Assembly: GCA_032358255.1 (NCBI GenBank)
Contig: JAULBX010025220.1
Span: forward strand, 1-64,000
Direction: 5' to 3'
Origin: Heterotrichella gracilis
Taxonomy: Eukaryota > Sar > Xanthophyceae > Tribonematales > Xanthonemataceae
Length of the DNA: 64,000 nucleotides
Part shown: piece by piece, positions 12,427 through 62,480 of the stretch
How the letters are laid out: each line of letters opens with the position of its first letter
How positions within the stretch are numbered: position 1 is the stretch's first letter
Translations under genes and position numbers: made by a program
The notes under the pieces: model-generated
What the model was told of the DNA's origin: nothing
Database searches by the model: none
What the model saw: only the letters and a program-made list of their open reading frames with translations

Positions 12427-15400
12427 ATGGCCTCAGATGATGACATGTTTGCTGACTTGGACGACCCTTCCAGCACGACTGCTGTGTCCAATCTACCCAT
12501 CAAACCCCAATCACCACACACACTAGCGCCCTCAGTTGCTGGTGCGAGCATGGACAGGCTGACACCAGGGTTTAAAAGGAACACCCAAGGGCCAATCAAG
12601 GAAAGCGACAACAAGCGTGTTCGTGCAGACTCCGTTCTCACAGGTATTGTTTGCAAGGTTTCACCACACTAGCCTGATGGAACATGAAGGTCATTGGGGT
12701 CACGGTCACTTGTAAAACTTCTGGTGGCCCCCATGTAGGATACACCCCCCCGCACCACCCATGAGGCCCTACCAGCTGAGCGGTCAGCTGGTAACAAGTA
12801 ATCGCAGTTTTTATACCCTCTCTGCTGCTTGCGAGCAAAACTGGTTGCCAGTTTTTTGTGTCAACAGTGGCATTACCATCTCACGCGACCTCTCTATCCG
12901 CCCCCGCCAAAGCAGGCACCCGCCCGTACCCACCCGCCACCAGCCACTCAGCCTCCACCAGCCACCCGACCCAACCCACCATCACCCCACCCGCCAGCAC
13001 CAACCAATCAGCGGGTGCCACACCGCCAGCCGGCCAACCAGGGCCAAGTGCACAGCCTGCCAGCCAGTCAGGTGGCTTGGCAGGCAACGGAGTAAGTATA
13101 GAGGTTGCTGCCAGCGAGGACAAAGGCAGCAGGCCATGCATGGAAGGTGCGCAGTAGAACTCATGCAAAATAGCAATTATTTTGCCTATTATTCATTCCA
13201 GAACAGGAGGACATTAATATATCACATGTCGTGATATATTTAAGTCCTATTGTCCAGAATCTGTGATCGTTTTAGTAAACATTTTTAAAATAATTCTTTT
13301 GCGTGTCATTCTTACTTGCCTGTCATTTTTAAAATGATTGATTTGCTTGCAAAAACTGATACTGATGGACAAAAATATCTGACAGGACAAAGCGCAGTGA
13401 TACCTGTTGTCTGAAAACGCCCTGAACAGGCAGGCACACAGCATGTGACACTGCATCCTGGATCGTGTTCCTTTTCAGAAACCAGAGGTTGTGACATGGC
13501 ATGGTGCATGGCGCCAAGCCGATGTGCGTGTGTGTGTGCAGATGTGTGGGTGATCACGCAGGACGCGCGGCAGCACCAACACCTTCCAACCAGGTGGGTG
13601 GGGGGCCGATGGTGGTGATGGTGGTGGTGTGGTGAATGTATTCCTGCCGTTGACGGAATGGGGGTTGAGCAAAGTAGGGCATATTAATGGTTACCGCGTT
13701 GCATTGACACCGTTGGTGTTCCAGCCATCTGGCTCCGATCAAAGCCTTTTGGCTGTGAGCACAGTTGCCTGCCAGCCAATCATACAGTTTGACACGTTCA
13801 TGCAACGAGGGGTAATGGAATGCCACCTCCCAACCTCCCCCACAGCCATCCTCAAACCCCCCGCACTTGAAGTGCAACCCCGCCACAGCTGAACTGTACA
13901 TGCAATCCCCACGACAGCCTGCAGCCATGGATCAGACTCTGACTCGAAAGTCTGAGTAGCCATGAGCCTTGAGTCAAGTCCTGAGTAGCCGTGACCCACA
14001 CATAAAACCTTGCGCAGGGTTTCCTTCATGGCTATATTTGACGGCCACGGGGGCAGGAGCATTGCTGAGCTGGCGGCCAAAGAGCTGCACCCTAGGGTAA
14101 TGGGCTGTGCACTGGTACCTGAGGAGGTGCGCAAAAGCAGTGGTGAAGAGCAAAAGCAGCATGTATCGTAGAAACTTTAGGTCCCTCAGCCTGCACAAGT
14201 GTTGCCCAGCTGGTCCTTGCTGTGGCCAAACCCTTGCTAGGGTCCCACAGTACTGCCATACTTGTGATAATTTACATATAAGCGTAAGTTGTGCTGCCTT
14301 GCCAGGTGGCGCAAGGTGGTGCGTTGGACCTTGCTGCAGCCAAGGTCGCTGTGGTGGAGGGGTTTAAGGCTACAGATAGGGTTTTGCTTGAGGCTGCTGC
14401 TGGCGCTGGGTGGCAGGATGGCGCTGCGGCGGTGGCTGTGTGGGTGGTGGGGGATGCGCTGCTTGTGGCCAATGTTGGTGCGGCAGGGGAAGGGTGGGGT
14501 TGGCGGTGTGTTGTGGGAATGGGGAAGTTACCCAAAAAGTATATGGTTTGTGCTTTCAAGAAGCTTCTCAGTGTGAATGCTACCATACCCATCCCAGGCG
14601 TGTGTTTATATACAGTTGCGTACTACTGAATACACACTACTTCAGGGTCATTTGCATGCCCCACTCTGCCCATACTGGTGCTGAAGTGCAAGGAGCCAAT
14701 AACACCAAAAAGAATGCTGGGCTGCAAACTTTATTGGAGGTTCTTTGTAAGTACTATTTGTCAACCCTAGTCCGAGGTTGTTTGTGATGTGTGTGTTTTC
14801 AACCCTCACCAAGACTTGGTTGTGGTGAGTTCAACCCTACATTAGGGTTTTATGGCATTGGTCTGCAGGCGACGCACGCTGCGTGCTCGGCAGGGCACGG
14901 CCGCCAGGAGAAGAAGCACAGCGGGTTAATGGGGAGGGGAAAGTGGAGAGGACTGATGCAAGTGCAGTGGACAGAACAGATGCAAGTGCAGGGGAGGGAA
15001 GGAATGGGGGTGCAGGGGAGGATGGTCAAGGTTTGCTGAAGGCGATCACTTTGAGTCGAGACCACAAGGCCATTTTCCCAGGGGAGAGAGCACGCATTGA
15101 GAAAGCGGGGGGAGCTGTGCTTGACGGCAGGCTGGATGGTAAATGGGGGGCCTTATGGCTTGGGCTTCATTAGGGTGTAGGGTTGGGGATGATGGGTGGG
15201 TGGGGGCCCTGATGCCTGCAGGTTAGGGTGTAGGATGACGGGTGGGTGGTGGTAGGCTGTTGCCTTCACCTCTGTAGGATGCTGGGTGTAAAGTGTAGGT
15301 CCAAGCAGGGGCACATTCACACTATAGTAGGCTGGATGGTGGATGTTGTACCCTCCTCATTTACCCGCAACCACAGGGAGCGGAAATCCCACCTTACCCC

Positions 15401-22710: not shown

Positions 22711-24659
22711 ATGGGAGTTGGCATCCCAGGGACTGAATTAGGGCGGTTGGAATCCCAGTACCTCCTGGGGAACGTGATCGGGCGGGGGAGCTGGGCGGTG
22801 GTGCGTGCGGCAACCCACAGGACCACAGGGGATGCGGTGGCTTGCAGGTGGGTGCAGGTGTTGTGGGATAGCTGGTAGGGTTTTTGGCAGGGTTCTTCCG
22901 CTGGTTTTGAATCTATAGCTCCCCCACCACCCGCGTGCAGGTGGGTGTCGTGTTCATTTGTACGGTTTTTGACAGGGCTGGGCGGTAGTGCGTGCAATAA
23001 CCCACAGCACCAGAGAAAGGCGCTGGCACTGTGTCCATCCTTTTGTATTAATCATCAATAAAATATATTAGTTGCTGATGACGATGAGATGACAGGCCTG
23101 CTATCTGTGTCGTACACTTATTTGTTTTTTAGTTTAAAATAATATTTAATTCTTTTAAATGTTATAATATATTTCTTGTGAACTTTATTTCACGTTTGCT
23201 TTCTATATTTATGCGTGCGCCATGCAGGACTGTCCGCAAGCATGGTCCAGATGGCAGCAGTAGTGCTGAGCTGGCGACTGAGCTGGCGATACTCACACGC
23301 CTGCAGGGCCACCCGCACATCGTTGCCCTGCACAGGGTCTTTGAGGATGACGGGGCAGTGCACCTTATCATGGAGAGGTGCGAATGGGATGGCGACCACA
23401 AGAAGCGCTTCACAAAGCGCATCATGAGCATGTGGTGGCGACTGTGTTGTATGAGAATATTGGTCTCACAATCACCCTCGGTCATCCTTAGATTAAAACC
23501 TTTCACTCCTCAGTCCTAGCTTATATGGTAACCCTTGCCCCAATTGCACCCCTCTAGTTGCCCACCTCATCCACCACCAGCCACTGACAGAGCGCCATGT
23601 GGCACGATTGGCGCGCCAAAGGCTACTACTCTTACTTTGCTATCACTGTGATACTGTGGGGCACCCCATCCTCTTGAACCCCAACGCATGAAACTGACAC
23701 AACCAGTCGACTCTCCCCCCAGGTGCACCCCCCTGGTTGCCCACCTCATCCACCACCAGCCACTGACAGAGCGCCACGTGGCACAATTGGCGCGGCAAAT
23801 GCTGGCAGCAGCAGCCCACTGCCACTCGCACGGGGTGGTGCATCGGGACATCAAGGTGGAAAACTTCATGGTGGCGCAGCGGAGGGGAGGGGAGGAGGGG
23901 GTGAAACTGGTGGATTTTGGGTTGGCCACGTGGCATGCGGGGGAGGTACCGCTGCAGGAGGTGAGGGGAGGCTAACATGGGAGGGTTTTCTGTGATGGGG
24001 ACACAGGTTGGTTGGCACTGTAGCCTGTATTGCCCTGATCACACATGATTATGCGTTAATCAAACCTGGTCATGCCTCATCAAACCCCACTGGTTGCGTT
24101 GCTCCCACAGGTTGTGGGCACCGCAGCCTACATCGCCCCAGACATGCTGAGAAAACAGTACAGCTTTGGGGCGGACGTGTGGAGCCTGGGCATCGTCATT
24201 GCTGCCCTGCTGACAGGTACCCCCCCCTTTGTGGGTGACACTGACGCATCCACCTTTGAGGCCATAGCCAGGGGGAAGTTTGATGCGAGTGTCCCCCCTT
24301 GGTGCCATTTGTCGGCTCAGGCAGGAGAGTTGCTGACTCAGATGCTGACCAGGGACCCTGATGAACGACCCTCGGCAAGGGTTTTGGAGCACAACCCCTG
24401 GCTGGAAAACCCTCCCGACAGGGTTCTGGGGGCGGCGGCGGTGGACCGGTTGAGCGAATTTGTGGGGCAATCATCCGCGGAGTTTGCAGGAGATTCATCC
24501 ACGGATAGGTTGAAGGCCACGGGTGTGTTTTCCCTGTCAGAGGGGGCACAAGGGGGATATAGCGGTGTGGGGGTGTGGGGGTGGCTGAGCGCCTGCTGTT
24601 GTTGCTGTGGGCCTAGGCCGCATGGTGCAGACAGCGCAGCAGCGGCGATGGCCTTGTAA
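22711..24659 (+). CDS. CaMK-like Ser/Thr protein kinase with Arg at the VAIK lysine, 357 aa
   Basis: Exons, all in phase: 22711-22847, 23228-23377, 23723-23960, 24111-24659. Kinase motifs: glycine loop IGRGSWAVV (23-31), αC glutamate in ELATELAIL (60-68), HRDIKVEN (136-143), DFG (160-162), APD instead of APE (184-186) and [15 protein letters not shown]. At the usual VAIK lysine the sequence reads AVACRTVRK, so residue 46 is Arg (codon AG|G split by intron 1). That normally cripples ATP use, so this may be a pseudokinase or use a different lysine. The tail has a five-cysteine run (SACCCCCGP), a plausible lipidation site. The ATG at 22711 is the first in frame with the glycine loop. Introns 1, 2 and 3 each hold an echo of an adjacent exon edge. 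Confidence 0.88.
22979..23030 (+). repeat. Intronic echo of kinase exon 1
   Basis: CTGGGCGGTAGTGCGTGCAATAACCCACAGCACCAGAGA parallels 22789-22840 in exon 1 (CTGGGCGGTGGTGCGTGCGGCAACCCACAGGACCACAGG). It is 190 bp downstream, inside intron 1, and covers the glycine-loop region. Confidence 0.85.
23545..23628 (+). repeat. Intronic echo of kinase exon 3
   Basis: TTGCCCACCTCATCCACCACCAGCCACTGACAGAGCGCCA is nearly identical to 23735-23795 of exon 3 and includes a CTAG acceptor-like site at 23557. The copy is about 170 bp before the true acceptor. Identity is above 90% over about 70 bp, so this is one of the youngest echoes. Confidence 0.9.
24001..24042 (+). repeat. Intronic echo of kinase exon 4
   Basis: ACACAGGTTGGTTGGCACTGTAGCCTGTATTGCCC parallels the acceptor and start of exon 4 (24104-24146: CCACAGGTTGTGGGCACCGCAGCCTACATCGCCC). 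It includes its own CAG. Confidence 0.85.
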
Positions 24660-25444: not shown

Positions 25445-28237
25445 TCAGGGTTCATGCAGCGCGTAGCGCAGTAGGTGTGCCACCACTCGCACGCTCAGGC
25501 TGTTGCCCAGCAGCGCGTATCGTTGGCGCAGGGTGATACTCGCCGGGAAGGCAAAGCCAGGGGGAAAAGAGTGCAAGTTGGCGATCTCGCGAGGGGTGAA
25601 GTACCTCAATCCAAGTTGCGACAGCTGGCTCTCACTTAAATGCCGGTGTGCTGTGCTTCCATTTGCGGATTCCGCCAAGTCAGTGCTTGGACCAGGGCCA
25701 CCTCCTCCTTCATCCCAAGCATCCTCCTCCCCGGGGACAAACTCTGCCTCAGGGTTCCCGGCTGTCGCCACCTTGGCGCGTTTTGCCTCCGGTGGCTTCG
25801 AGACTGCCGCAGCAGCTGTGGAGCCGCCACCTGGCGCAGACTGCTCCACCCCTTGTGGTCTGGATGGTGCCATTTGCCTGTTCTGGTGAGTCTGCCCCTG
25901 CTGGTAGCATATGTCCAGGAGGTGGGTATTGGCCGTGGCCAGGACAGAACCCGAGCCCTGCGCAGTAGCAGCAGATACTTAATTGCAGGAATTTATTTGG
26001 AGTGTTACGGTAATGGTGGAAAAGAGCAACAAATTTACGTAACAAATCAATTCCAAAAAAAATCCAACTGATCACATGCATGCACCTTCTGTGGGTCTTA
26101 ATGAAACCGTTGCAACGTTCCCCGAATCTTGCCCCCAACCGCAATCACCCCCCCCAAACACACCACCCACCACAATAGCTGCACTTAGCATGACAACGGG
26201 CAACATCACTATTGTCAAGACGCTTTGCAGCACATGACTTATGTGACATAATGCACCCACCTTTGCGTATCTGCTGTATGTCTTTGTGAAGCAGTTGCAA
26301 CACAGGCTGTCTCCCGTCACAATGTCAAACACAATCCCACACTGCGCAATCGCGCCCTCAGAAATATCAAACTGCCCCCAGGGATTTGCCCCATCCCTGA
26401 CAGCATTATCCTGGTCCCCAGACGCCACACCGGGGATGATATCTGCCTGGGGGTCTGTCACGAGAAAATCACAAATAGGGGAGATGGGGTAGCTGCTGCC
26501 TGTGGAAGCATCGCCAGGTGGCAGGTGGCTGGGCCCTTCCACACTGCCCTCCTGGACGCCGTCCTCATGCACGATTGGCTCTGCACTTGTGGTTGACGCA
26601 GGTGCCGTAATCGTTGATTTGTGAGCAGAAGCAGGCCGGCCATCAGGGGTCGCCTGATCCTGGTGGGACGTGGGTTGGGGCCCCGACGGGATGGGCCCTA
26701 AATGCACCATATTTGGCACATTCGAGGGGGTCAGTCCCAGGGACCGTAGCTTCGCCACACGAAAGGGGTCAGGGATGGAAGAACCCAGAGGACCTGATTC
26801 ACAAAACAAACAAAATAAATGAAAAGGCATAACAAGGGCAACCAATGGCGTGCATATGGCCAAGAAAATGTTGAATTGTAGTCCACATACCTAACCTTTC
26901 ATGCCATTGTGCATCCATGAACTGTTCTACAACGCATGGGCAAAGGAGAATGAAGACACATATAGCCCTTCCTACCTAGCACGAAATCACTTAAGCAAGC
27001 GCAACACCGTAGAAGACCAAGAAGGTTTCAAGGTTTACGGTTTCATGGCAGCGCACCTTGAGCCGTGTCAGGTGGTGGCGTCAAGGGGGAAGACTTGGCC
27101 ACTATGAAGTACCGGGGACGGGAGTAGGGGACCCCAAATTGGACGGGGCTGAGCAGGAACTCCTGGGGATTGAGCCAAGGTGGGATGGGGGTTAACAGAG
27201 GCGATATTTGACTGCAATACAATGACTGGGCCGCGGCGACTCATTGAATACTTTTATTCTTATTCTGAGGTGTGCGGGCACTTAGTTTGTGCTGTGCACC
27301 AGATAGGACCTAGATAAATGTGGTGGTCGCAACCCTGCGTCTCAACCCTGTCTCTCCACCACCATCAAGCCCCACCCCAAACCCTGATAAAACCCTTACC
27401 TGGAAGGAGTACCCTTGGCCCTGCAGCATGGCCAGCAGGCGGGCCCTGGTTTCACTCCCCTCAAATCCCACCACATTCTCCACCAATAGGACCTTTGGCT
27501 TGCGCTTCAATTTGGGGATTCGCTCCAAAAGGTCCAAAAAGCTGGCTGCCCTCCCATCGTTTTCGTGCTTTTTCAGTCCCCTGCGTGTGTAGGGCTGGCA
27601 AGGGGGGGAAAGAAGCCAGATGTCTGCCTGATAGGCATCCAGCTGCTTGGGGGATAGGGTTTGGATGTTACCCTACAGAACACATACGCAGGGTTTGCAC
27701 GTTGCCACACCAGGCACATGAGTAGGGTTTTCCTGTTACTTTACAGGGCAAATCATGTAGGTATTTCACAAGTTACCCAATGGGACACGCAAACAGCTTT
27801 TCACCGCATAGGCCACATGCATAGACGCACCAACCATTCGCTTTCTCCCATCCCTGCGCTCACCTGCACAGGCCTGACCCCAAAGTTGTGCTGGTACACA
27901 TCATTGGCCACCTCGTTGATGTCAAACGCAGCCACAACTTGGGCCCCCGGGGCAGCATCTGCTAGCGCATAATGCAGACCTGCATACACGCGGAGGGGTG
28001 CCGATCAGTAAAATACCCTAAACACTGGAGTAATCCTTTGCATGGTAGAAAGAGATGTTTGGGAACCCTGGAATAGGGTTTGTGTATTAGTGAGCCTGCC
28101 CACCAACTACACCCAGCGGGCAGCTTCTGCCCTAGCTTCATGCAGACTTCTGGATTAGTTTCTTCACCAGCGTGTGGTTACGCACCTCCAATCCCACTAT
28201 AAAACTCGAGTGCCCTCATGCCTTCGCCAATCGTCAT
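25445..28237 (-). CDS. tRNA (cytosine-5) methyltransferase DNMT2/TRDMT1, 6 exons, 530 aa
   Basis: Methylates C38 of tRNA-Asp and related tRNAs in characterised members. Exons, all in phase: 28237-28186, 27979-27864, 27672-27400, 27162-27057, 26793-26261, 25957-25445. Motifs: SAM loop FYSGIGGLHYAL (12-23), catalytic PPCQPYTR (Cys81), ENV (121-123), [20 protein letters not shown], the DNMT2-specific [11 protein letters not shown] (350-360), [24 protein letters not shown] and [15 protein letters not shown]. Human DNMT2 is 391 aa. The extra length is mainly a Ser/Thr/Pro-rich insert in exon 5 (about residues 200-310) and a second one in exon 6. Met1 (MTIGEGM) or Met7 could be the start. It lies divergent to ProRS. 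The conserved catalytic set is complete. Confidence 0.95.
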
Positions 28238-29321: not shown

Positions 29322-36257
<6,936 letters not shown>

Positions 36258-40054: not shown

Positions 40055-41398
40055 CAGACGACTTATTCCTGGCAAAACGAGCTTGGGTGTTGCTCCTGCC
40101 CAATTGTCCATAGTACAGCTTGGAATGGATTTATGGTTTGGAGTGGTAGGGAATGGTCATTGATGAGGTGCAGGAGAGGGCTTTCACTGTAGCAGGAACT
40201 CTTTCTGTTACAATACACTGTATTATACAGCATTGTGGCACAAAACACTCGTTCCTTTTACACTACTTTTGTAAAAATGCCAGTGGCACTGGCACTGGCA
40301 ACCCTTTGTGTAATGCTGACATCACTGATACTGTGCCGCAGCCTGGGGCTGGAATGTACAAGCATTCAAACGTTAGCCCAACAGGCCCAATACTCAATGA
40401 GAATTGGCCTTGTTTTGTACAGATCGTGACTGAATTCATGATATTGGTATACACAGCCATACTCCAAAACATACTGATGATGTACCATAATGCTTTACGC
40501 AGCCAAAGATTAATCCCAATCGGATGCAGTGACTAAGAATAAGATAAATAGATGAAAGAATTCGAATACGTACAGCACAGCAACTGGCAGGGCCCTAATC
40601 CACTATTGCACTGCAGCCAAAACAAGCATCCCATGTATATATACCACGAGCACATAGATTGACTGTCTAAGACAAACGCACGCCTTTTAGGAAATGCTCT
40701 GCATTCCAGCTACCAAATACTGGGTCCCCTTGAATAACACACCCCATCCATCTACCCCACCCCCATGTCCCCGGCCCTCCCTCGGCTGCAACAACAATAC
40801 AAAGCTGCTTAGAAAATAATTCCAAGGATTTGTAACAAGTATCGCACCGCCGATTTATTTACCACCATACACATTGTTGAGTACAAGTGGAACATGCACG
40901 CTCCTTTCCCTTGACAGTGGGTGACTGAATCCCAAACCCTGAACCCGAAATGAGGTCTTGCGATGCGCAGTACTTCAATACGAAGATGCAGCTCCAAATT
41001 GCAGTGGATTTCCCCCATGACCACACAGTCATGTGCTCTCAAACTTTGGCAATGCGTATGCCTTGGTGGGCACCTTGCCATCCTTTCACAGCCAAGACTA
41101 TCCTCCTGCAGGAAAAACCATCCAACAATTAAAAGGACGTCGTGGTTTGTTGCCATGAGATCACCTCAGTTAGGTGCCCAGTGACAAAAAGACATCTGGG
41201 CATATGGACATGCAATGCCATGCACTGAGGTCCGCGTAAGCTGCTGCACCATGCATGCAAGCCAACAAACCTAGACCACGGTACAATCAGTGTTTGAGTC
41301 TTCTCCGCCATTGGTAGGCGACTGATCATAGGCAGCACCTCATGGCCATAGGCAATGAAAACACATGAGCACCAGTCTGTCCATTTGGTAAACATGAG
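40055..41398. other. Intergenic between convergent genes
   Basis: AT-rich with no recognised gene. It begins with a copy of the end of peptidase exon 8 (ATGAGGTGCAGGAGAGGG at 40162-40179, against 39996-40013), so echoes also occur downstream of a stop codon. Confidence 0.6.
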
Positions 41399-44767: not shown

Positions 44768-44912
44768 ATGGGCAGGCGCAGGCGTGGTGGCAAGAACAAG
44801 AGGCGCCACAAACGCCGGGATATCCAGTGGCAGCACTTGCATGATGCAAGGGAGGGGGCAGTCATCGACATGCAGGAGAGTGAGAGGAGGAAGAAGAAGG
44901 CAAAGGAAAACA
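44768..44912 (+). CDS. Orphan first exon encoding a strongly basic N-terminus
   Basis: ATG GGC AGG CGC AGG... reads MGRRRRGGKNKRRHKRRDIQ and continues to a second basic stretch (ERRKKKAKEN) before a good donor (A|GTACGTATG), ending in phase 1 after 48 codons. The composition suggests a nuclear or nucleolar protein. It could be the first exon of the RDR locus: an AG at 45363-45364 gives the right phase for the RRM exon. Or it may belong to a separate gene whose other exons are gone. I do not recognise the family. Confidence 0.4.
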
Positions 44913-45364
44913 GTACGTATGCATTGTAGCGCTCTTGTATATGCCCTGGATGCAACGAGCAGCTACTTGATGATACGCATACATCTCCATGTACTGCTGC
45001 CAAGACTGATGTGACCAAACATGTATTGTGATTGCTTGAAATGATTGATGAAGCAATACTGCCTGAATGTATTGCTCGAGCTTGATATGTACCAGAGTCG
45101 ATGGTATGGCGTGCTGCATTTACTGTCGCCTAGAATATTGAAAAATGTCCGATTTTAAATTTAAATGTACAATAATTTCAAATTTGTTTTGCTGATTTTT
45201 AAAACACGCATAGCATGATAATACGCACGCATGGGTTGCATACCTCAGCGCGTGCTGTCTAGAGTAGTTGCCTTTGCCTAGATACCCCTTAGCTACTACC
45301 CTAACCTGCCCAGAGCGCAGCATTTACAGTCACAACGCATCATATGACACTCAGATTAGCTGAG

Positions 45365-47906
45365 CAATGTCTGCTCTGTCCTCCCTGGCCACAGTTGTGG
45401 AGCTGCTGAAGCAAGAAGCCACCAACCCAACCGAGGTCAAGTTGCAAGGGCTCAACTACCAAGCAAGCGCAAAGCAGGTTGCTCAGTTTTTTGGTCCTGC
45501 ATATGGACCAGTCCAGAGCTGCAGGATTGCAACCAAAGCCAACGGAGGGGGCAAAATCAGCAGTGGCAGGGCATTTGTGAAGTTCCAGTCCAGCGAACAC
45601 TGCCAGAGGCTTCTGCAAGACACTGAGCGGTTTCCTGTGAATGAGAGGAGGGGTCCAAATGCGATCACATATCCCGGGCTGCACTTGAGCAATGTGCGCC
45701 CAGAGTTCCATCCCGTCTTCTGCCCAATTGCGCACAGAAACACTTAAGGTGATCAGCACAAGCGCATACAACGCAGTGCGTGACCAATGCTGCTGGTGCA
45801 CCCACTACATGCCAAGGTCACGATCCAAAACTGCAGATGCACTTTGCTTGTGTATAATCTGTATGGTGCTGGAACTGGGCCTGTTGTGCACTGCAACAGT
45901 TACTATGATATAACAAAGTACTAGTAGCTTTTGCAAAGCCTTTAAACGATTTAGCATACATGTCACAAGGCATATCATTACTTTTTTAATGAAGCTAATT
46001 CTGTGCAGGGTGTCCCGCAACCCTCCAGAAACAACAGAGTTCCATCCCGAGAAGGCCAATCACCCCGCCTTTGCTGCCACTCGCCTCCAGCTGGGAAACT
46101 TGGTTGGCAATGACCCAGTGGAATTTAGTGTACTGGCTGAGCTGGAGTGCAATGTCAGGGTCGATATCAAGGGGAGGAGTCTGTGCTGCTATTTCACCAT
46201 CAGCGACGACACACTGCCCAACAGGGATGTTTCTGTGCATGATGACTCATTGGGCCTTCACCAGCTGCTTTCAGACCTCCAGGAGGCCAGCAAGGGTTTC
46301 CAAATGCAGGTGACCAACAGTAACACTCCTTTGCTCCTGCCCAAACTTTGCAGGCGATTGGCAGTAATTGAATCGGAAACAAGAACAACATTGCTGGTGA
46401 ATTTCACCTCTATTATATTGCCAGCTCATGATTGCGTGATAAAGTGCACCTGATGCCTGCTGTATAGTACTACTGTACAGGCTACGCAAGAGCATCATGT
46501 AATACACCAAGCGGTTGTAGCCCAGACCAATGCCAGTACACGTGGTGTATTTTGTGATACTGACAGGAAGTTGCATATGATGGTCAGATGCGGTTCAAAG
46601 ACATCTCCAGCCACATTATCCTTCAGGCACAAGCCAACATCGATGATCAAGCTGAAAACAGTGCAACTGCCTGCATAATTGTGCCCATGCGCATCCCACC
46701 ACAATTCTTCAAAATGGCTACTGTGGGATTGTTTGCTGCTTTTCATGAAGTGGACCGTTTCAACTATGGCTGCGACGCGGAGCCTGTGTGGATCAGGACT
46801 TGTGGAATTCCTGACACTGGCGAAGCTGCTGGATACAGCTTTGCCTACAGGTAAGGGTGCATTTGTTATCTATGTTTTCATAGCACAGCTTTGCATTGAC
46901 TTGCTTGTAACTGCCCACTTGGCGCTGCCAACTTAGCACTGCCAGCTTGGCATGGCTCATTTTCAGTGAATCCCCGTGAACTGAAAATGAGGTTATCCGG
47001 GGGTGTACGCTTTCTGTATTATATCTCCTTGCTGGAGATCTCTCCAGCTCTTTTATTCTGTGGATACTTGTTTGGGCTTCTCGCCTATACGTCAGGCTTT
47101 TTGTTTCACAGCTCCTGGTATCGTTTAGCACGGTATCAGCTAGTTAACATCTGCTGCCCACTTGTATTCGTATGCTTACTCGCTCTTCTAGGGGGCGTGC
47201 CCTTCCCTCCAGTCCCACCCGGGCATCGCCTCTCTTATCTTTTGTGTTCTATCGCTTCCTTTCCCTCATCGCCGCGGTGTGTGCTTGGTTGTTTGGGGAC
47301 AGGGTGTTGGCGGCGATAAGTGTTTCATACTGTAATAAACAATTACCAAAATGGTGCAACGATAAGAGGATGGGAGTTGACAGTGGACTTCTAATATATA
47401 TGGCAGGACTAATATACACGGGCGAACATAACAAACATTGATAAGACATTTGTCGCTGGTGGGTGCAAATGACTAAATTGGACTATATGTGACTGATTAA
47501 TTTATCAACCTGGCAGGTCGATCATCAATGATTTATTAGTAAGGATGAAAATGTTAATAATATCGCATTAGGGGCCCTGCTTGGGAGTGACCTGACGTAC
47601 GTACCTTTGCAGGACTTCCACCAGCAGTTGCGCGAAGACCTGGTAGACCCTTCAAATCCCGCCGGGGAAATTCCAGACTCTGAGTTTCTCCAAGAGGCTC
47701 GCAAAAAGGCTGCCGCCTGGTACTACGTCACCTACGACTCTGAATGGCAGCACTTGGGTGGTGCAGCAAGCAATGGGAGGCAAGGCAGGCGCAACCAGCG
47801 CCCACTGTGTAGCTTCCCGTGGATTGTCGCAGAGCATCTGTCAGAGATCAAGCACATGTGGGCCAGCCCAGCACCCGGCCCTGTAGCCAATGTCAGTGCA
47901 GGCTGA
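45365..47906 (+). pseudogene. Plant-type RNA-dependent RNA polymerase (RDR) locus lacking its catalytic core
   Basis: RDRs make dsRNA for siRNA pathways. The N-terminal part is present: an RRM-like exon (from 45367; VKLQGLNYQASAKQVAQFFG, SSGRAFVKFQSSEHCQ), an exon ending at 46309 (FHPEKANHPAFAATRLQLG, DIKGRSLCCYFTISDD) and 46567-46850 (YDGQMRFKDISSHIILQAQ, VWIRTCGIPDTGEAAGYSF), which align in order with RDR1-type N-termini. The last exon (47613-47906) has EARKKAAAWYYVTYDSEW and LCSFPWIVAEHLSEIK, the RDR C-terminus. Between them only about 760 bp remain, with no DxDGD motif and no RdRP exon, where about 2 kb of coding sequence is expected. The exon ending at 46850 is phase 2 and the last exon starts in phase 0, so joining them shifts the frame. 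I infer an internal deletion, unless the assembly is wrong. Confidence 0.75.
46957..46990. other. Perfect 11-bp inverted repeat
   Basis: TCATTTTCAGT and ACTGAAAATGA separated by 12 nt, at the left edge of the segment that replaces the RDR core. It is followed by a pyrimidine-rich stretch unlike the neighbouring introns (46990-47340), ending in CTGTAATAAACAATTACC. It could mark an insertion or the deletion junction. Confidence 0.6.
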
Positions 47907-53526: not shown

Positions 53527-56500
53527 ATGCCTCTGGGATCTCCTGTGTCTCCCACCAAGGCTAGCGAGCCTGGCAGCAGACCTCAGCTTGAGGCTCCCAG
53601 CCCTGGAAAACGCCAACGCAACGGGATCATGACCTCACCTGCAGGCAGTGCCTTGGAATGGGCCAACCTTCCATGGACTCTGCTCCTGCTGGGGCTGGTG
53701 TCTCTAGTCCTGTGGTTGGTCAACAAGCAGGCCAAGTTGGAAGAGGAGCTGAGGCGGGTCACATCAGCCGCGCTGCTCGCCCAGCGGGGCAGTTTTCAAG
53801 CTGATGATGGTGGGTCAAGAACTAGCTAGTCTGCTATGTACGCGCATTTTGGCATACATGTTGAAACCGCAGTCAAAGTTTACAAGCATGCTCAGTCCTG
53901 GCGCTGCGAGAAAAAATGTGCAACTGAGGGGCATGTCAAGGCATGTTTGCACACACAAGCACGTTTGCTCCGCATCCACTTCGGGATGGCGCAAGGAGGT
54001 GTAAAGGATCCATGCAATGCAGGGCCAGCATGTCTCCACTGCGGAAATGCTGCCCCACTCCCAGCGTGTTGCCTATGGTGCATCATATAATCTTTTTATT
54101 TTTATCATGCAGGGCCAGCACAGCAGGCCAGCCTGGATCAACTGATAGACCAGCTCAAGCGGCACAGCTTCTCAGAACCTGCGCCAGCCGCTGCACGCAG
54201 GGACAGCCAGAGCACTGCGCTTGCCCAGCTCCTGATAGAAAGGCTGAGGAGTAGCTCACTGCCCACCGATAGCACCACGCCACCGCCGGCCAGTGCATCA
54301 CATGGGCCCAGCCTTGGAGCACGCAGCAGCAGCACTGATGACCTGATCCAGCTGATAGACCAGATCAAGCAGCGCAGCTCCTCCGAATCAGCGCTGACCG
54401 CTACTCGCAGGGACAGCCAGGCCAGTGCCCTTGCAGAGCTCCTGATAGAGACACTGAGGAGTGGCCAGCGGCCCACCTCATCACCGCCTGCCAATGCATC
54501 ACCTGAGCCCCCGTCCCAAGGGCTCAGCAGCAGGAAGACTGATGACATACCCGTCACACAAATACTGGACCACATTACCAATCTGTCATCTCGGGGACCC
54601 TCGCCCACCCAATCTGGGACCGATGCCTCCGCCGCGGGTACCGCCGGGGAAACAGGCCCCGGCTCGGGAACAGGTGGGCATTGACATATGGCTACTTACC
54701 AGGTTTTCTTCAGCTCACATTCCATCCCAGGACTGTGTTTCATGTTGACTACGCGTCTCGCGTCAGGCTTTCCTTTTTTTTTTGTGGTGATGTTGCTTTC
54801 TTTTTGCATAAGGGCGCGCATGCTTGGCCTGCGGGGATGCATCCCCTGTCCCAGCGCGCTGCCTATGGTTCATGACAGCCACTAATTATCATCACCACCT
54901 TGCTCACCAGGCTCGGGGTCCGGCATTGCTTCAGCGGGGTCTTCCCACCTGGGCGATGTTGCAGTAGGCATGTTGCTCCAGCAGCTGGTGCATGCAAGGT
55001 CGGGTGGCGCCTCCCCCAACCAATCAGGCAGTGGCGGCGTGCCTGCGCCCATGCTCTTGGGCAATGCCAGCAGCAGCGTTGCCAAGGGGGGCAGCACAGT
55101 GGATGAGCACATCCAGCGCATGCAGCACATGACGGTGGCGGAGTACGCCAGATGGGCCAACACTCCCCGCCAGCCGCAAGACCCCGTCATGGTTCAGGTG
55201 TGGGGACAGCGGTTTTTGTTGATGGAGGTTTCGCAAGCAAGGGGCCTTCCTATTTTTGCTTATTAGATGACTGGACTGGCAATATATTCCATTGTACTAA
55301 ATTTAGCAGAATATAATTCAGTAACATTTTATAAAAGTTTACTTAATAAATCAGTACCTTATCTTATCTCCCTCCTTTTTTCGTGCACTCACCACCTCCA
55401 TCCCCTCCATCAGCTGCAGCAAGAGCAGCTCAAGCCACCCGCGAGGAGCACGGGGCTGGATACCGCCATGGATAGCGGTCCCTCCCCGTCCCCCTTTTTG
55501 GGGCTTGCTGCCGCTAAGCAGCGGGCAAACGTGGCGGCGCAGGCGGCGATCGATGACATCCCGGGCCCACTCATGAAGGCCAAGGCTGACGGGGCGCTGC
55601 CAGGTGAGGAGCAGGCGAGGAGCGGTGCTAGGAAGGCGTGGTGCACTGCCCGCATGCGCCACGACCTATACATATTTTCTTATAAACATATGTGTAATTC
55701 TTTTTGATATGTTTGAACATAGATGTAGATGTAGTTGTGCCTTTTTGGGTGGGATGGTCAGACTTTTCGCTTCCTTTTTTCTTTTTGCATAGAGGGCAAG
55801 TGCAAACATGAAAGCCTTCCCGATACCAAAAAACGCCGTGCACAGGGGTTGCCTATGGTCCTGCTGTACTGCGTCGGACTGCCATCCATTGCTTTGTTAT
55901 TCTGTGAGAGTGCTCCGGTGTGCCCGTTGCATCAATTGCTATAACAAAAGGCACGAGTCAGTGACAATCCACCCCCACTCCTACTGGCAGTGTTGCCTTT
56001 GAACGGGAATGGTAATACATATTTAATATACTGCCGATTTTGTGCAAAACCAGACACCCTCACCCTCACCCACATCCACCACAGACCCCCCACTGGACGA
56101 CCCCCTCCCCAGCCCCTTCAATGCCGACCAGCCAAGTGCAGGTGAGGGCTCCTCGGGCCCATTTGCGCCCGTGGACCAATCCGCCAACAGGTAAATAAAA
56201 CAGTTTTACAGTTTTCTTTACCTATATCTACCTGTTTGTGGGACCATTCGGACAACAGGATTTTTTATGGGCAGCAACGTTTTAAGACGGATGGAGTATT
56301 GTGTTACTTTATATTTACATGTATTTCTGCCCCCAGGGACCTAGAGGCCACCTTGCAGCACTTATCAAAGGACCTGCAATGGAGGGATGGCATCATCGAC
56401 GCCGCGCACATCAACATCTGCCGGTCCGCCAGCGGGGCGCCATACGTGCTGGGGGAAGGAGCCTATGGATTTGTAAGTGCAGCAAAGACCCTAGAAGCTG

Positions 56501-59500
56501 TTTTTGACCAGCCTTTTTGTTGTGAGGAAGCGAGCTTTGTATGCGTATGTGGCAGAATAGTATAAACGAATAATTTGCAATCCCCTCTTTTCTCGGTCTG
56601 ATGATTATGCACCCTGCATATGCCTAAAAGTAATCCACCTGCCCTGCTGTCCAATGAACTTACGAAGACACCCCCTTTGGGGGTTGACGAAAAGCGGGAG
56701 AGGGCAGGGTTAGACCAGCTGTGACGTGAAGGTCCTCCGGCCTGGTACTTGGGCGTCATACATGCGCCATACCTGTCCCAAACCACCCGTAAATACCCCA
56801 CCTGTCCCCGATACACCCACCCTTTAACCATGCACCCTACCACCAGGTGTACCGCGGCACCATGAACCGCAAGATGCCTGTGGCTGTGAAGATTGTGAAG
56901 CAGCAGTGCAGCAGCAACCTGCAGGGCACCCAGCACATTCTGCGCGAGGTGGCCCTCATGCGCCACCTGCAGAGCCCATTCCTGGTGCAGTACATGGGCG
57001 TGGCAATTGACGCGGATGAGAGGCTGATGCTGGTGACGGAGTACATGAGCGGCGGGGATGTGCGGGGGGCGATCGACAAGGGGTTGTTGGACTGGAACAG
57101 GAGGTGGGGTGGGTGGGGGGAGGGTGGTGGTGGTGGGTGGTGGCAGACGTGGGGATGGTGAATGCAGTAGTTGTGGATGGGTCTGGACGTGGATGAGAGG
57201 CTGATGCTGCTGACGGAGTACATGGGGGGGGGAACATAGGGGAAGCAATTGACAAGGGGATGCCGGTCTGGAACAGGACAGGTAGGGTGGGGATTAGCAG
57301 CTGGGAAGTGGTGACAGAGGTGGCTATGGTGGACGTTTAAAAGGTGGAACGGACGCTGGTCTCCACACGCAAGACCCACTTCCATTGAGCTACTAACCCT
57401 AACCCAGCCTGTGCAGGGGCAAGCGCGTTGCCTTTGACATCGCCATGGGCCTGCACTTCCTGCACTCTCGGCGAGTCATCCACTTTGACATGAAGTCCTC
57501 CAACGTGCTGCTCACGCCAACGTTCAACGCAAAAATTGCAGACATTGGCATGGCAAAGGTACTGTTCCGGCTGGGTGGGCTAGAGGACTCCTGGAATTAT
57601 CATTCCATGCATGCAGGCACTGAATATGAACCAGCAAATGTTTGATGAGTTATGTTTGTGGGGTATCGTGGTTGACTCTTCCCCTAAACCCCAGTGGGAA
57701 TGCAGGACATTTGTAGATTGTTTGTGTTTATGACGAATTGTGATACCATTTATGCTTTGTATATAACCCTAAACATAAACCCTACCCCCAATCACCCCTC
57801 AGGTTGCCACCAACAAGAAGGTGAGCGGTGTCTTTGGCACCTTCAACTACATGGCACCTGAGCTGTTTGAGAGCATGCGCTGCAACAGCAAGGTGGACAT
57901 CTACAGCTTTGGGGTGATCCTGTGGGAGCTCATCACAACAGAGGTGCCGCAGAGGGGGGCGCTCAGGGATTTCAGGTGAGGGGAGGAAACCCTCGGCGAG
58001 GGCTTTCAAAGCTCAGGAGGTTCCACTAGTGTGCAAATCCAAATCAATGCAAACAAATAGTGATGCAAATCTTCACAAACATTAAATACCCTTGCAAACA
58101 AAAGGTCACTGAAAGGGGAGCATCCCTGCAGCATCCTGAGATTACCCCCACTGGAATCCTCTTCAGATTCACGCCTCCTGCTTGCAAGATACCCAAGGAA
58201 CGCAGTCTGTATAGCCCTACCCACCGTCTGCAGGATCCCCGAGGAGTGCAGTGAGGCCATGGCAGACCTGGTGTGGCTGTGCTTGGACAAGGACCCAGCC
58301 ACCAGGCCCAGTGCAGAGGACGTGCTGGAGCTGCTGAGACCACACCTAAGGGTTCCATCGCGCTCACTGTCGGCCGGGAGCAACCAATCGCCAAAGAAGG
58401 TGCAGTGGCGTAGGGTGTAGTTTTAGAACTTAGGGTTTGGTGTGACCACCAGACAGCCTCGGCCGCAAGAAGGTGCAGCGGTGTAGAGGATAAAGTGTAG
58501 GTTTTGGGTTTGTAGGTTTTAGGATTCCAGTGCGCACGCTGTCGGCCTCAGGATGCAGCCAGCCAAGGATGTGATACCCTTCTGTAGGGTATAGGTTGAC
58601 CCCCCGCTGCTCCCAGCCTTGCCTTGCAATCCCTTCTGTTTCACACATCTTTCAATCCCCCCTTGTCTCCTGATCCTCCATTGCCTCCTGGTCCCCGCTT
58701 GCTCCTGAATGCCCCTTGGTTACCACCCGCCCTGCAGCCGCCGTTGTTTGAGCGCGTGGGTGGCCTGCCTGCTGTGACCAAGGTCGTGGAGCTCTTCTAC
58801 CAAAAGATGCTCACAGACGAGGTCATCGCGCCTTTCTTCGAGGGGGTCAACATGGCGGTGCTGTCGGCGAAGCAGGTAAACCCTAAACCCTACAATCAAA
58901 ACAGTTCTTGAACTTTACGTTAAAGAGGGTATATATCGCAGTGGTATCTGTAAAGCAGATAAATGTGGGGCAGGTACATTGTATTCCAATCTTGTTTCAA
59001 GCAAGGGGGAGGTATAAAGTGCGAGAGGGACTGTACTGCTTGTTAGTACAGTGACCATCAATTTGGGCTTTACATGCGTGCATGCATGCTGGCCGCCACC
59101 AGCAACATTACCATTATCGCCCATTTTTTCATTTTCTACTCACCGCTACCCTCACCCCCCACCCCTCACACCGGCGCGCCCCACCCCCCCACCCCAGTCC
59201 CAGCTGATGGCCTACATCTTTGGGGGGCCCGCCGAGTACACCGGCAAGGACCTGGCAGCAGCCCACGAGCGCATCATCCAGCAGCAGGGATGCACCCGCA
59301 GGCACTGGAGGATGGTGGTGGCCACGCTCAGCCAGGCAATGGAGGATCTGGGGATAGCAAAGGTGGGTGGGGGCTTGGGGGAGGGGTTCCATTTGGTGGA
59401 GGCGGAGTGTAGTTCCTTTTTAACTTGTGAGGGGATTCTACCTACGAGGGGGATAGGAGAGTTTTCAGACAGACGCTACCTCAGGATGTCACACGAATGA

Positions 59501-59898
59501 CCTCTGCTGGTACAGCTGGTGGGCTTTTAACCCTATCCTCACAGCACACCCCTGCATGCCACCATGTCTGCATGCCACCTTGTCATGGTGTGAACTAGGC
59601 CTGGTTTATCTGCTGCTTGGGCATTCAAACCCGCGTCACCAACCAACGCCCTGTGCTTCAAACAGTGCACTCACATTTGTTCCCATCGCCCATGCACCTG
59701 CATCTTCCTGTGATAAATATGTCTTCCTTATGCTCTCCTATTGGTATACCCCAGGATCTGATTGAGGAGGTGATGGCCAACGTGGCACCCACCGCTGATA
59801 TATTCCCAGAGACCACCGCCACGGTCTCCCCAGCGCCCTCCGCCTTTGCAGCCACAGCCCATGTGCTACTCCAGCCGGTGCATGTGGGGGAGCATTGA
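53527..59898 (+). CDS. Membrane-anchored TKL-type kinase fused to truncated haemoglobin, 13 or more exons, ~930 aa
   Basis: Exons: 53527-53809, 54113-54673, 54911-55197, 55414-55603, 56054-56190, 56337-56472, 56847-57103, 57417-57558, 57803-57975, 58234-58399, 58738-58875, 59198-59362, 59755-59898. A TM (about 49-66, [17 protein letters not shown]) is followed by a linker with two 70-residue repeats. The kinase has [37 protein letters not shown] (DIG for DFG), YMAPELF and [12 protein letters not shown]. Exons 11-13 encode a 2/2 globin: [19 protein letters not shown] (B10 Tyr at 58798), PFFEG (CD1 Phe), [19 protein letters not shown] (proximal His F8 at 59264). The kinase-to-globin join is phase 0 on both sides and no ATG begins the globin, so a fusion is well supported. 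The exon 4/5 join (55603 to 56054) is out of phase, so a short exon or a different donor is missing there. A heme-sensing role is inference. Confidence 0.85.
54131..54490 (+). repeat. In-frame tandem repeat, 210-bp (70-aa) period, in exon 2 of the kinase-globin gene
   Basis: CTGATAGACCAG at 54142 recurs at 54352. Both units encode LIDQ(L/I)K(R/Q)-S-S-E...RRDSQ-(S/A)-x-ALA(Q/E)LLIE-LRS. A diverged third start ([12 protein letters not shown]) follows. The repeats are amphipathic and may dimerise. The RRDSQ motifs resemble basophilic kinase sites. Confidence 0.85.
54760..55870 (+). repeat. Related ~100-bp module in introns of the kinase-globin gene
   Basis: TTTCTTTTTGCATAAGGGCGC...GCGCTGCCTATGGTTC (about 54775-54870, intron 2) and TTTCTTTTTGCATAGAGGGC...GGGTTGCCTATGGTCC (about 55775-55862, intron 4) are related. 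The tail (GTTGCCTATGGTGC) also occurs in intron 1 near 54068. This argues that an apparent mini-exon after the AG at 55792 is part of the repeat and not coding. Confidence 0.6.
57178..57295 (+). repeat. Long intronic echo of kinase-globin exon 7
   Basis: ATGGGTCTGGACGTGGATGAGAGGCTGATGCTGCTGACGGAGTACATGG...AATTGACAAGGGGATGCCGGTCTGGAACAGG repeats 56994-57101 (ATGGGCGTGGCAATTGACGCGGATGAGAGGCTGATGCTGGTGACGGAGTACATG...GATCGACAAGGGGTTGTTGGACTGGAACAGG) over about 115 bp at roughly 80% identity, 183 bp downstream. It covers the kinase hinge region. Confidence 0.92.
58445..58600 (+). repeat. Echoes of exon 10 end in the intron between kinase and globin
   Basis: CCTCGGCCGCAAGAAGGTGCAGCGGTGTAG (about 58457-58486) and GATTCCAGTGCGCACGCTGTCGGCCTCAGGATGCAGCCAGCC (about 58523-58564) copy parts of the exon 10 end and donor (58348-58415: GGTTCCATCGCGCTCACTGTCGGCCGGGAGCAACCAATCGCC...AAGAAGGTGCAGTGGCGTAG). 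Two separate, overlapping echo events are likely. Confidence 0.8.
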
Positions 59899-62480
59899 GG
59901 GGAAGCCCAGCGCCAGACTGCTTAGGATATTGATGCTGCCAGTCATACTACACCCTTCTCGCATCGTTGGCGGATGGGGTTTTAGGGTTTTGATGCGCCA
60001 GACTGGAGCTAGCAGGGACGGAGGGCAACAGTAAGGCTGTGGGATAAAATGACGGGGTAATCAAGCCATGCGATGGAGTAAACTAAGGCAAATGATGGAT
60101 AATTGAGCCACGTGACGTGGTCTGCTGCAGCAAAATTAGTCCCAGTGCATTCTTTTACTATCTCTGGTGGCGGGAGCAGCAAGAGGCATTACTGTTTTGC
60201 AATTTGAGTTATGGGCGACCTAGGCCTAATGTTGGTCATGATGATCTGGGTTTTTACACTATCGCACCTCAGTGTTGTATTGGCTTTGCATCTGCCAACC
60301 ATCCTACAATTTATCACCTGGATTTAATTTACACCAACTTCCCTGTAGCAGGCCCACAATAACTGAGTTTTTATGAAGTCGGCATATGTATTGCGTGTAA
60401 AATGTCTTCATCCTGTTGCTTGTTGTTGGTCCAGTCACTCTTGGGCATGTTTTCTGGTATTGGTCAGTATGACAGCAGTGCTTTGGCTCAACTCATTTGA
60501 TGTACCTCGCTCAGAATAATATGAACGGGCTGCCTATTGGGATTCAAAAAGCACCTGATTCAGGTTGAGACTTTTTGAATTGATTCCGGCATTATGATTG
60601 CAACCCACTTGGTTGGCAATATTAGGCACCAAGTTGGGTGCCAGTGAATTGCCAATTGGTTTCAAGTTTCTCACTGAGAAATTCCAACCTTGTCTAGAGT
60701 CTGTAATCTTGGATCAATTGGGATTCCAAATTGAATTGTGGTGGCACAAGCACGAACCGTTCACGACTTCTACAGGCAATTGTGGTCGAGCACGATGCCA
60801 GCCGATGACGTACTGTATGCTGAGCTGTGCACATGATGTACTTCGCCTTTAAATCCACTAAATCAGATTGGGCCAAAGAGATCCAATCACCGTGACATCA
60901 TCGATGGTCGGCGGCCATTTTGGACTACAGGTGTGTATATCGCCTAAGGTCAGGCAATTGGAAGTGATAAACATCACATCCAATACTGTACAGCAAAGTG
61001 CGCATCCGTTCAAATACTTTACTGACCGAACTCATCAACTCATCCCGGATTGGGCCAACCAATGTGGTCATTGAAAGAATGTTAGTTAACAGCTCAGGTC
61101 TCCAGTGGACTGACGAGAGGAGGGTGGGATGTGGATGGTGGGTGATGTGAGTGTGTGAAGAATCGAGGGAAGAATACTACATTGATTGACATTAAATGAA
61201 AGTAGTAAAAGCGCCAATGCCAATCCAGTGCCAGGGTGTGCCAGTAGCACTCAGTGACCACCAAAGGCACCCAGGGTTTTGCTGAGACTGGCAAAACTGC
61301 GTTTCGCCATCCCTAGCAGTCCAATATGGAACAATTGAGCGATACCCTGAAATTACCCAGGTTTTGCCAGAGATTCCTCCTACAAGGTACAACCCGCTGC
61401 ACCCTGTTGTTACATACCTATTGCCTGAATAGCAAACCCTATGCCACAGATTTAATCTGAAGCAAACACCCATGTGTCATTCAATGGAATGCTAAAACTT
61501 TTAAATCATTATCTACTTAGATAAAGAATATAATAAGTATATAAACTTGCGCCCGCAACCTCCATGATCCCTAGTCATGCGCATGGTGGATGTCCCACAG
61601 ATACGCCTGGCTGCCTACATATGCACATGTACAACCACAGTTGGCATAATTGCACGAACACCCATTTGGGTATTTACACACCTGCGTATGTATACCAAGC
61701 ACCTGACATGTGCAGGGTTAAAACGTGTTCAAATAATCACCAACCAATCAAAGATATGTCTGCATACATTACCGCAATGGGATCATATCCTCTAGATTAT
61801 TAACCTGCCGCAGCATCGCCTTGAGATAGCATGCACAGTATGGTGTATCATAGTCATCAGAGTATCAATAGGCAAGGAGCAGTTGCCTAAGGACTCGCCT
61901 TCTCCACTGGTGGCACCCAAAACGTGCTTTCTTCATTAAGCTCACACCGCCAAACCCAGAGCAACAACCCAGTTGCACCCCGACTGACGTGTGCAGCAGA
62001 CAGTTGGTCAACCCCATGTTATACAATCTGAGCTTGCCAGCCTGCCACTTGTACAGTTGGATAGGGCCACCTTGGAAGTGTCATACCAGTACCATGTGCT
62101 CTTCTTCACAGCCATTGGGTTCTGGATAACCTCTCAGATTTTGAAAAGATGGGCGTCTTGTAACCTGTGAATGCAACAATCTTGCTGTCCACAACTAGAC
62201 TGCACTAATTGTCTGCCTCCACGAGTGAATGCACAGCGCGCACTAGTGCATTCAGTACTGGAGTTGCATTGATTTGGTCATCAGGCCTGGCCATCCACTG
62301 TACTACTGCCACTGGCTAATGTGGTTGCCGTTCATGCAACATTTTTCCAAGTGCATTTGGTAGCAATATCTCAGAGTAACATGTGGCAATTACCAGTAGC
62401 AGTTGCGCATTCAACTGTTCAACTGGCACCAAAACATCATGTATACCCCTTCACAAAATTGTGGGTATTTTTGTGTTGTG
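59899..62480. other. Intergenic, gene-poor
   Basis: No exon chain recognised. A hairpin-like pair (CAACCCACTTGGT / ACCAAGTTGGGTG) lies near 60600-60645. Composition is AT-richer than the genic part. Confidence 0.55.

Follow-up and report, generated by a model that had tools for sequence, protein, structure and literature searches.

A predicted TKL-type kinase joined to a C-terminal truncated globin in Heterotrichella gracilis, and related loci with tandem globins

The conversion of nitric oxide (NO) or low oxygen into signalling in green algae is an open question, in which truncated globins have been implicated. Plant globins are induced by NO and hypoxia and an algal nitrate reductase-globin is induced by NO, according to PMC3820574, which also treats globin-coupled sensors and the nitrate reductase-globin of raphidophytes. 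Globin-coupled sensors are built on 3/3 globins (PMC7082302). PMC7082302 also holds the closest described arrangement to the one presented here, in a passing remark, supported by citations of Vinogradov 2011, Hade 2017 and other papers, that there are protein kinases with fused 2/2 globins and that several such globins may share one polypeptide. PMC5745447 cites a multidomain review on the subject. The present work concerns a predicted gene of the alga Heterotrichella gracilis at positions 53527-59898 of a stretch of 64,000 nucleotides (nts) of contig JAULBX010025220.1 (the window), whose probable product is a TKL-type protein kinase that is anchored in a membrane and ends in a group-I 2/2 globin.

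Because 2/2 globins fused to protein kinases are mentioned in PMC7082302, the kinase-globin kind is already known and novelty of kind is not claimable; the likeness, namely the same domain kinds on one chain with multiple globins, is known from one sentence there. A preliminary description of this DNA knew of no described algal protein with this order of domains. None was found in the literature searched, but the statement in PMC7082302 takes the kind of fusion itself out of that claim. More broadly, a literature search that covered few subscription papers found no description of an expanded membrane-anchored kinase family with globin arrays, an algal transmembrane-kinase-globin family included, and the word "globin" is absent from the text of the Trebouxia genomes paper (PMC11523091). 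Globin-coupled sensors share with the window protein the covalent link of a globin to a signalling output. However, they have a 3/3 globin, whereas the window protein has a C-terminal 2/2 group-I globin and a eukaryotic-type kinase, so that its globin lacks the 3/3 fold by which a globin-coupled sensor is defined.

The reading favoured here, with a probability of about 0.66, is that a single gene in the window encodes a membrane-anchored TKL-type kinase with a C-terminal group-I 2/2 globin, that at least 11 such genes are present in the genome, and that haem controls the kinase. The gene model lies on the plus strand and consists of 13 exons (Table 1) with 2748 nts, or 915 codons plus the stop, no internal stop and GT-AG borders in 12 of 12 introns, which confirms the single open spliced frame seen in the preliminary description. 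It places a transmembrane-like segment, a TKL-type kinase and a group-I truncated globin in this order. Introns range from 146 to 481 nts (n=12), and the one that separates kinase and globin is ordinary in this respect (338 nts). Third-position GC content is 0.64-0.89 across the 13 exons and intron GC content 0.36-0.59; in exons 1, 2 and 13 the third-position value is close to the first-position value, which gives weak coding support for the linker exons.

The kinase domain (Pkinase, PF00069) covers residues 514-744 with an E-value of 3.8e-49 in Pfam, above the cut-off of that database, where PF07714 scores 2.6e-45. Its best match of solved structure is the TKL kinase CTR1 (E 4.1e-35). The catalytic residues are present (VAVK Lys, HxD Asp, DxG Asp and APE) in the variants HFD and DIG, in contrast to the HRD and DFG of the CTR1 row; the window kinase is thus a predicted TKL-type protein kinase that keeps its catalytic residues. 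Among the matches listed, the highest database identities, measured across some 60% of the query, belong to trebouxiophyte kinases, and land-plant kinases have similar E-values; the host would by this be a green alga, perhaps a trebouxiophyte. The kinases of Myrmecia, Elliptochloris, Trebouxia, Asterochloris and Coccomyxa listed there are 36-45% identical to the window kinase, but PF01152 is found in none of them, whereas the window gene has the globin.

The globin domain (Bac_globin, PF01152) occupies residues 770-882 (E 2.3e-13, 50.9 bits for a cut-off of 21), while NCBIfam yielded no family for it. Its best match of solved structure is Chlamydomonas reinhardtii THB1 (PDB 4xdi; E 7e-27, gapless over 112 residues). 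THB1 is a chain of 135 residues, whereas the window globin forms the tail of a kinase. Both have B10 Tyr, an FF pair that includes CD1 Phe, E10 Lys, E11 Gln and F8 His. Hence the residues named as key for haem in the preliminary description (B10 Tyr, CD1 Phe and F8 His) are indeed there, and they are kept in most of the fused paralogous domains described below; the single change among the pocket residues checked is a Leu for Phe at the position labelled E14.

The genome (G000; 68.5 Mb in 903 contigs, with the window on C272) was searched with Bac_globin, with the kinase-globin part of the gene and with joined globins, and 18 loci of the kinase family were scanned with profiles built from exons. 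This sample is not random, the loci being drawn from matches of the kinase-globin search, with other kinase contigs of that search outside the sample, and C277 and C413 being fetched after globin matches had appeared there. Within it, 11 of the 18 loci, on nine contigs, have globin exons downstream of the kinase on the same strand: one each on C272, C150, C749, C106, C270, C277 and C413, and two each on C427 and C376 (a and b). The last kinase match and the first globin match are 398-1458 nts apart at these loci, and the number of complete globins ranges from 1 to 5. Altogether, globin matches were found on 13 contigs (12 from the joined-globin searches, plus C306 from the Bac_globin search, which the exon-built profiles missed); nine have a family kinase just upstream, and C141, C556, C306 and C161 have none in the examined DNA.

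The best documented paralogue, on the minus strand of C150, gives a 10-exon model from start codon to stop, encoding 1030 residues with one kinase and two globins in Pfam. Its exon 1 (44801-45688) contains the modelled start codon, a signal-like or transmembrane segment and the beginning of the kinase domain; exon 8 (40809-41009) contains helix H of the first globin together with the start of the second. Between exons 43207-42331 and 41956-41804 lies a junction intron of 374 nts without TGTAA, preceded by a modelled phase-0 donor. Judged by eye, 14 of 17 inter-globin junctions lie within one open stretch, and in all 14 helix H ends with an identical Phe-Pro; the three exceptions involve the QVGGF globins of C376a, C376b and C277, and the count omits three second halves or copies of globin exon 1 (C376b 65474, C376a 48447 and C277 225353). 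Because of these 14 open junctions, the tandem globins are, as predicted from the DNA, fused to one another. Together with the adjacency at 11 loci and the exon plan of C150, the open junctions also make the globins very probably part of the kinase genes.

Conservation of the haem pocket was followed across 25 complete fused domains. Split exon-1 matches were merged before counting, and globin exon-2 matches shorter than 40 residues were omitted (C749 63884; C376b 61481; C376a 45354; C277 230203, 223356, 223464 and 223563), as was one of two exon-1 copies of C277 domain 4, which was retained in the globin tree. Of the 25 domains, 24 retain F8 His and 23 retain B10 Tyr, and the two residues of the FF pair are retained in 18 and 23, against a median column conservation of 0.48. 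At the distal positions, 13 domains have Met and 6 have Lys at E10, and 12 have Arg and 11 have Gln at E11. A constant proximal side with a variable distal side would be expected if the repeats bind haem yet differ in ligand or affinity. Since F8 His is so widely kept, these globins very probably bind haem.

In the kinase tree, the 18 family loci group together with respect to four outgroup kinases (support 100/99). The globin label requires two changes on this tree, several nodes of which are open; of the first three branches within the family, two are globin-bearing and one is mixed. The tree fits one old fusion followed by loss, without proving it. In the globin tree, 16 other globins form a group (98/97) that excludes the 25 kinase-linked domains and the C161 globin. 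Each of repeats 2-5 of C376a is paired with the repeat at the same position in C376b, the partner of repeat 1 of C376b is repeat 1 of C277, and C270 forms a long branch. The C161 globin (12807-13393) is placed by this tree with the kinase-linked globins; no family kinase lies in the 5.8 kb examined upstream of it, and it has possibly lost its kinase.

Globins of the same group are joined to signalling outputs elsewhere. Among 28 database matches to the C150 globins, 26 (P0123 to P0148) are group-I 2/2 globins joined to a methyl-accepting chemotaxis protein (MCP) or to CheA. They are 37-53% identical to the C150 globins and differ in their output, which is MCP or CheA and not a eukaryotic-type kinase; the members with an organism name are bacterial. 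A literature search on these truncated-globin chemotaxis sensors listed only PMC7082302. Three further proteins, eukaryotic or metagenomic, contain five (P0001), three (P0121) and eight (P0122) Bac_globin stretches; ankyrin repeats are present in P0121 as well, and P0001 bears a transcript-assembly name.

If these elements belong together, a spliced transcript would cross 58399/58738 and give one kinase-globin chain, which would sit in the membrane with the kinase at the inner face. Haem would be bound in the globin by F8 His, and E10 Lys may serve as the sixth ligand, as it does in Chlamydomonas THB1. Binding of NO or O2, or a redox change of the iron, may then move the globin and alter kinase activity. 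Because the pocket is conserved and related globins occur on one chain with chemotaxis receptors or CheA, the predicted haem-based sensor is plausible, and haem-based control of the kinase by NO, O2 or redox state would be its most likely function.

Several observations weigh against a single gene. Read past its donor, exon 10 continues as VQWRRV and meets a stop at 58418-58420, and the junction intron holds an ATG at 58553 and a phase-0 GT at 58589, which together delimit a possible start exon (58553-58588). Because of these two features, the window locus alone does not exclude two neighbouring genes, duplicated as a block, in which the kinase would end at 58420 and the globin would start within the junction intron. 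In the same direction, kinase and globin are split by an intron at each of the 11 globin-bearing loci, none of which has both in one exon; an in-frame Met lies upstream of the globin at C749, C376b and C413 and the C270 match begins with Met; and seven of the 18 kinase loci (C314, C392, C465, C443, C149 twice and C198) have no globin in the examined flank, the best donor being phase 0 at four of these seven, so that this phase is not specific. Protein databases add to this. No kinase-globin protein was found among the 120 listed of 218 matches to a kinase plus globin query, nor any eukaryotic-type kinase in the Pfam list for the 28 matches to the two C150 globins, in searches restricted to about 500-1600 and about 570-1800 residues, respectively, which longer proteins such as those of C376 or C277 would escape. 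The window globin as query gave 158 candidates, none at E 0.001, but it also missed P0001 and is therefore no evidence of absence.

Against two genes, a 3′ untranslated region, a promoter and a start exon would need to fit into 317 nts in the window or about 347 nts in C150, and order and strand are constant across 11 diverged loci. The possible start exon is judged uninformative because comparable ones occur in 16 of 21 introns when the window gene and C150 are taken together, both junction introns included. The preliminary description had the globin without a start codon of its own: no Met occurs among the 47 open codons ahead of the first globin match in the window, which agrees with this, but the ATG in the junction intron qualifies it. 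Met is likewise absent from the open frame ahead of the first globin at C150, C427a, C427b and C106, while C376a and C277, with partial first matches and 0 and 10 open codons, are uninformative. Among the kinase-free globins, C141 has no in-frame Met and C556 and C161 have one. The end of exon 10 and the start of exon 11 are both phase 0, as had been claimed for the join, and a home-made matrix puts the best donor downstream of the kinase in phase 0 at eight of ten scored globin-bearing loci, C427b and C749 differing. TGTAA, presumably the green-algal poly(A) signal, is absent from nine of the 11 kinase-globin gaps; it occurs twice in their 12,239 nts, against 14 times in 25,559 nts of kinase parts and 16 times in 27,454 nts of globin parts, a modest depletion. 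Taken with the structures of the paralogues, we infer that the transcript crosses 58399/58738, and we regard two separate genes as unlikely.

The N-terminal part of the model is also a point against the favoured reading. The linker exons 1-5 and the N-terminal region found no match in the 18 kinase loci examined. The codons that differ between the two repeat units of exon 2 comprise 5 synonymous and 16 non-synonymous ones, with no sign of constraint. The transmembrane-like segment of the window is moderate (mean hydropathy of only 2.0 over 19 residues), and a cut-off of 2.3 missed it and was lowered to 1.9. A scan upstream of 10 loci found 11 sense and 8 antisense hydrophobic segments, hardly above the control. 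Clearer segments precede the kinase at C150, C427a and C427b, and C150 is the only locus to tie such a segment and the kinase within one exon. The window protein may thus be membrane-anchored. Hence, the proposal of a single transmembrane-kinase-globin gene in the preliminary description gains support from the gene structures of the paralogues and is weakened by a moderate segment and a junction that is intronic at every locus.

Two other explanations accept the fusion and dispute the role of the globin. It could be an enzyme or a buffer, acting as NO dioxygenase or scavenging O2 or NO beside the kinase, since truncated globins are linked to NO metabolism, as in the raphidophyte nitrate reductase-globin fusion (PMC3820574). 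Pfam scans of the window and C150 models revealed no reductase domain, and the same type of globin is joined to signalling outputs in other proteins, which makes this explanation improbable, about as much as that of two genes. Alternatively, the globins could be structural or protein-binding repeats without haem. Degenerate first globins placed ahead of the arrays in C376a, C376b and C277, a Tyr at F8 in the C106 globin and the altered E10 and E11 of many repeats speak for it, but the retention of F8 His and B10 Tyr far above the median column, and of all checked pocket residues but E14 in the window globin, leaves it with very little probability. Two further possibilities were rejected: a pseudogene, given the open frame and the retained catalytic and haem residues, and a chance adjacency of kinase and globin, given 11 loci with the same arrangement.

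Table 1. Features of the predicted kinase-globin gene, with positions in the window
Feature	Position	Strand	Basis
Exon 1 (start codon and N-terminal region)	53527..53809	+	gene model
Possible membrane-spanning hydrophobic segment, residues 47-65, charged residues next to it	53665..53721	+	hydropathy; position from gene model
Exon 2 (linker; two similar 44-residue units)	54113..54673	+	gene model
Exon 3 (linker)	54911..55197	+	gene model
Exon 4 (linker)	55414..55603	+	gene model
Exon 5 (linker)	56085..56190	+	gene model
Exon 6 (kinase domain start, glycine loop)	56337..56472	+	gene model, Pfam, exon profiles
Exon 7 (kinase N-lobe)	56847..57103	+	gene model, Pfam, exon profiles
Exon 8 (catalytic loop HFDMKSSN and DIG)	57417..57558	+	gene model, Pfam, exon profiles
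Exon 9 (activation segment, APE)	57803..57975	+	gene model, Pfam, exon profiles
Exon 10 (kinase domain end; phase-0 donor)	58234..58399	+	gene model, Pfam, exon profiles, donor scoring
Junction intron, 338 nts, without TGTAA	58400..58737	+	sequence scan
Exon 11 (globin, helix A to KQ pair, E10 Lys and E11 Gln)	58738..58875	+	gene model, profiles, alignment
Exon 12 (globin middle with F8 His)	59198..59362	+	gene model, profiles, alignment
Exon 13 (globin helix H, C-terminal tail, stop)	59755..59898	+	gene model, alignment
TGTAA, possible poly(A) signal, about 500 nts past the stop	60396..60400	+	sequence scan; presumed role

Within the gene, part of exon 7 (56986-57102) recurs in intron 7 as a decayed copy at 57163-57278 that is 73-80% identical, and similar-looking partial second matches of the exon-7 profile were seen near the paralogous exons of C106, C314, C443, C749, C270 and C277. 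Elsewhere in the window lie the C-lobe of a different protein kinase (24060-24656, plus strand), the end of a C-5 cytosine methylase (25448-25978, minus strand) and the core domain of a class II tRNA synthetase (32910-33626, plus strand).

A wider proposal, tentative and rated slightly below an even chance, is that the loci form a lineage-specific family of eukaryotic-type kinases, anchored in the membrane, in which arrays of one to at least five haem globins would act as a graded multi-site sensor of gas or redox state, the distal pockets tuning the individual repeats. Such a family would be a eukaryotic counterpart of the globin-coupled sensors, built on another globin fold. If the kinase-globin reading of the window gene is correct, the presence of globin and kinase on one chain would provide a direct link from a haem ligand to phosphorylation, and at least 11 genes with arrays that differ in their distal residues would offer a natural series for the tuning of sensor arrays.

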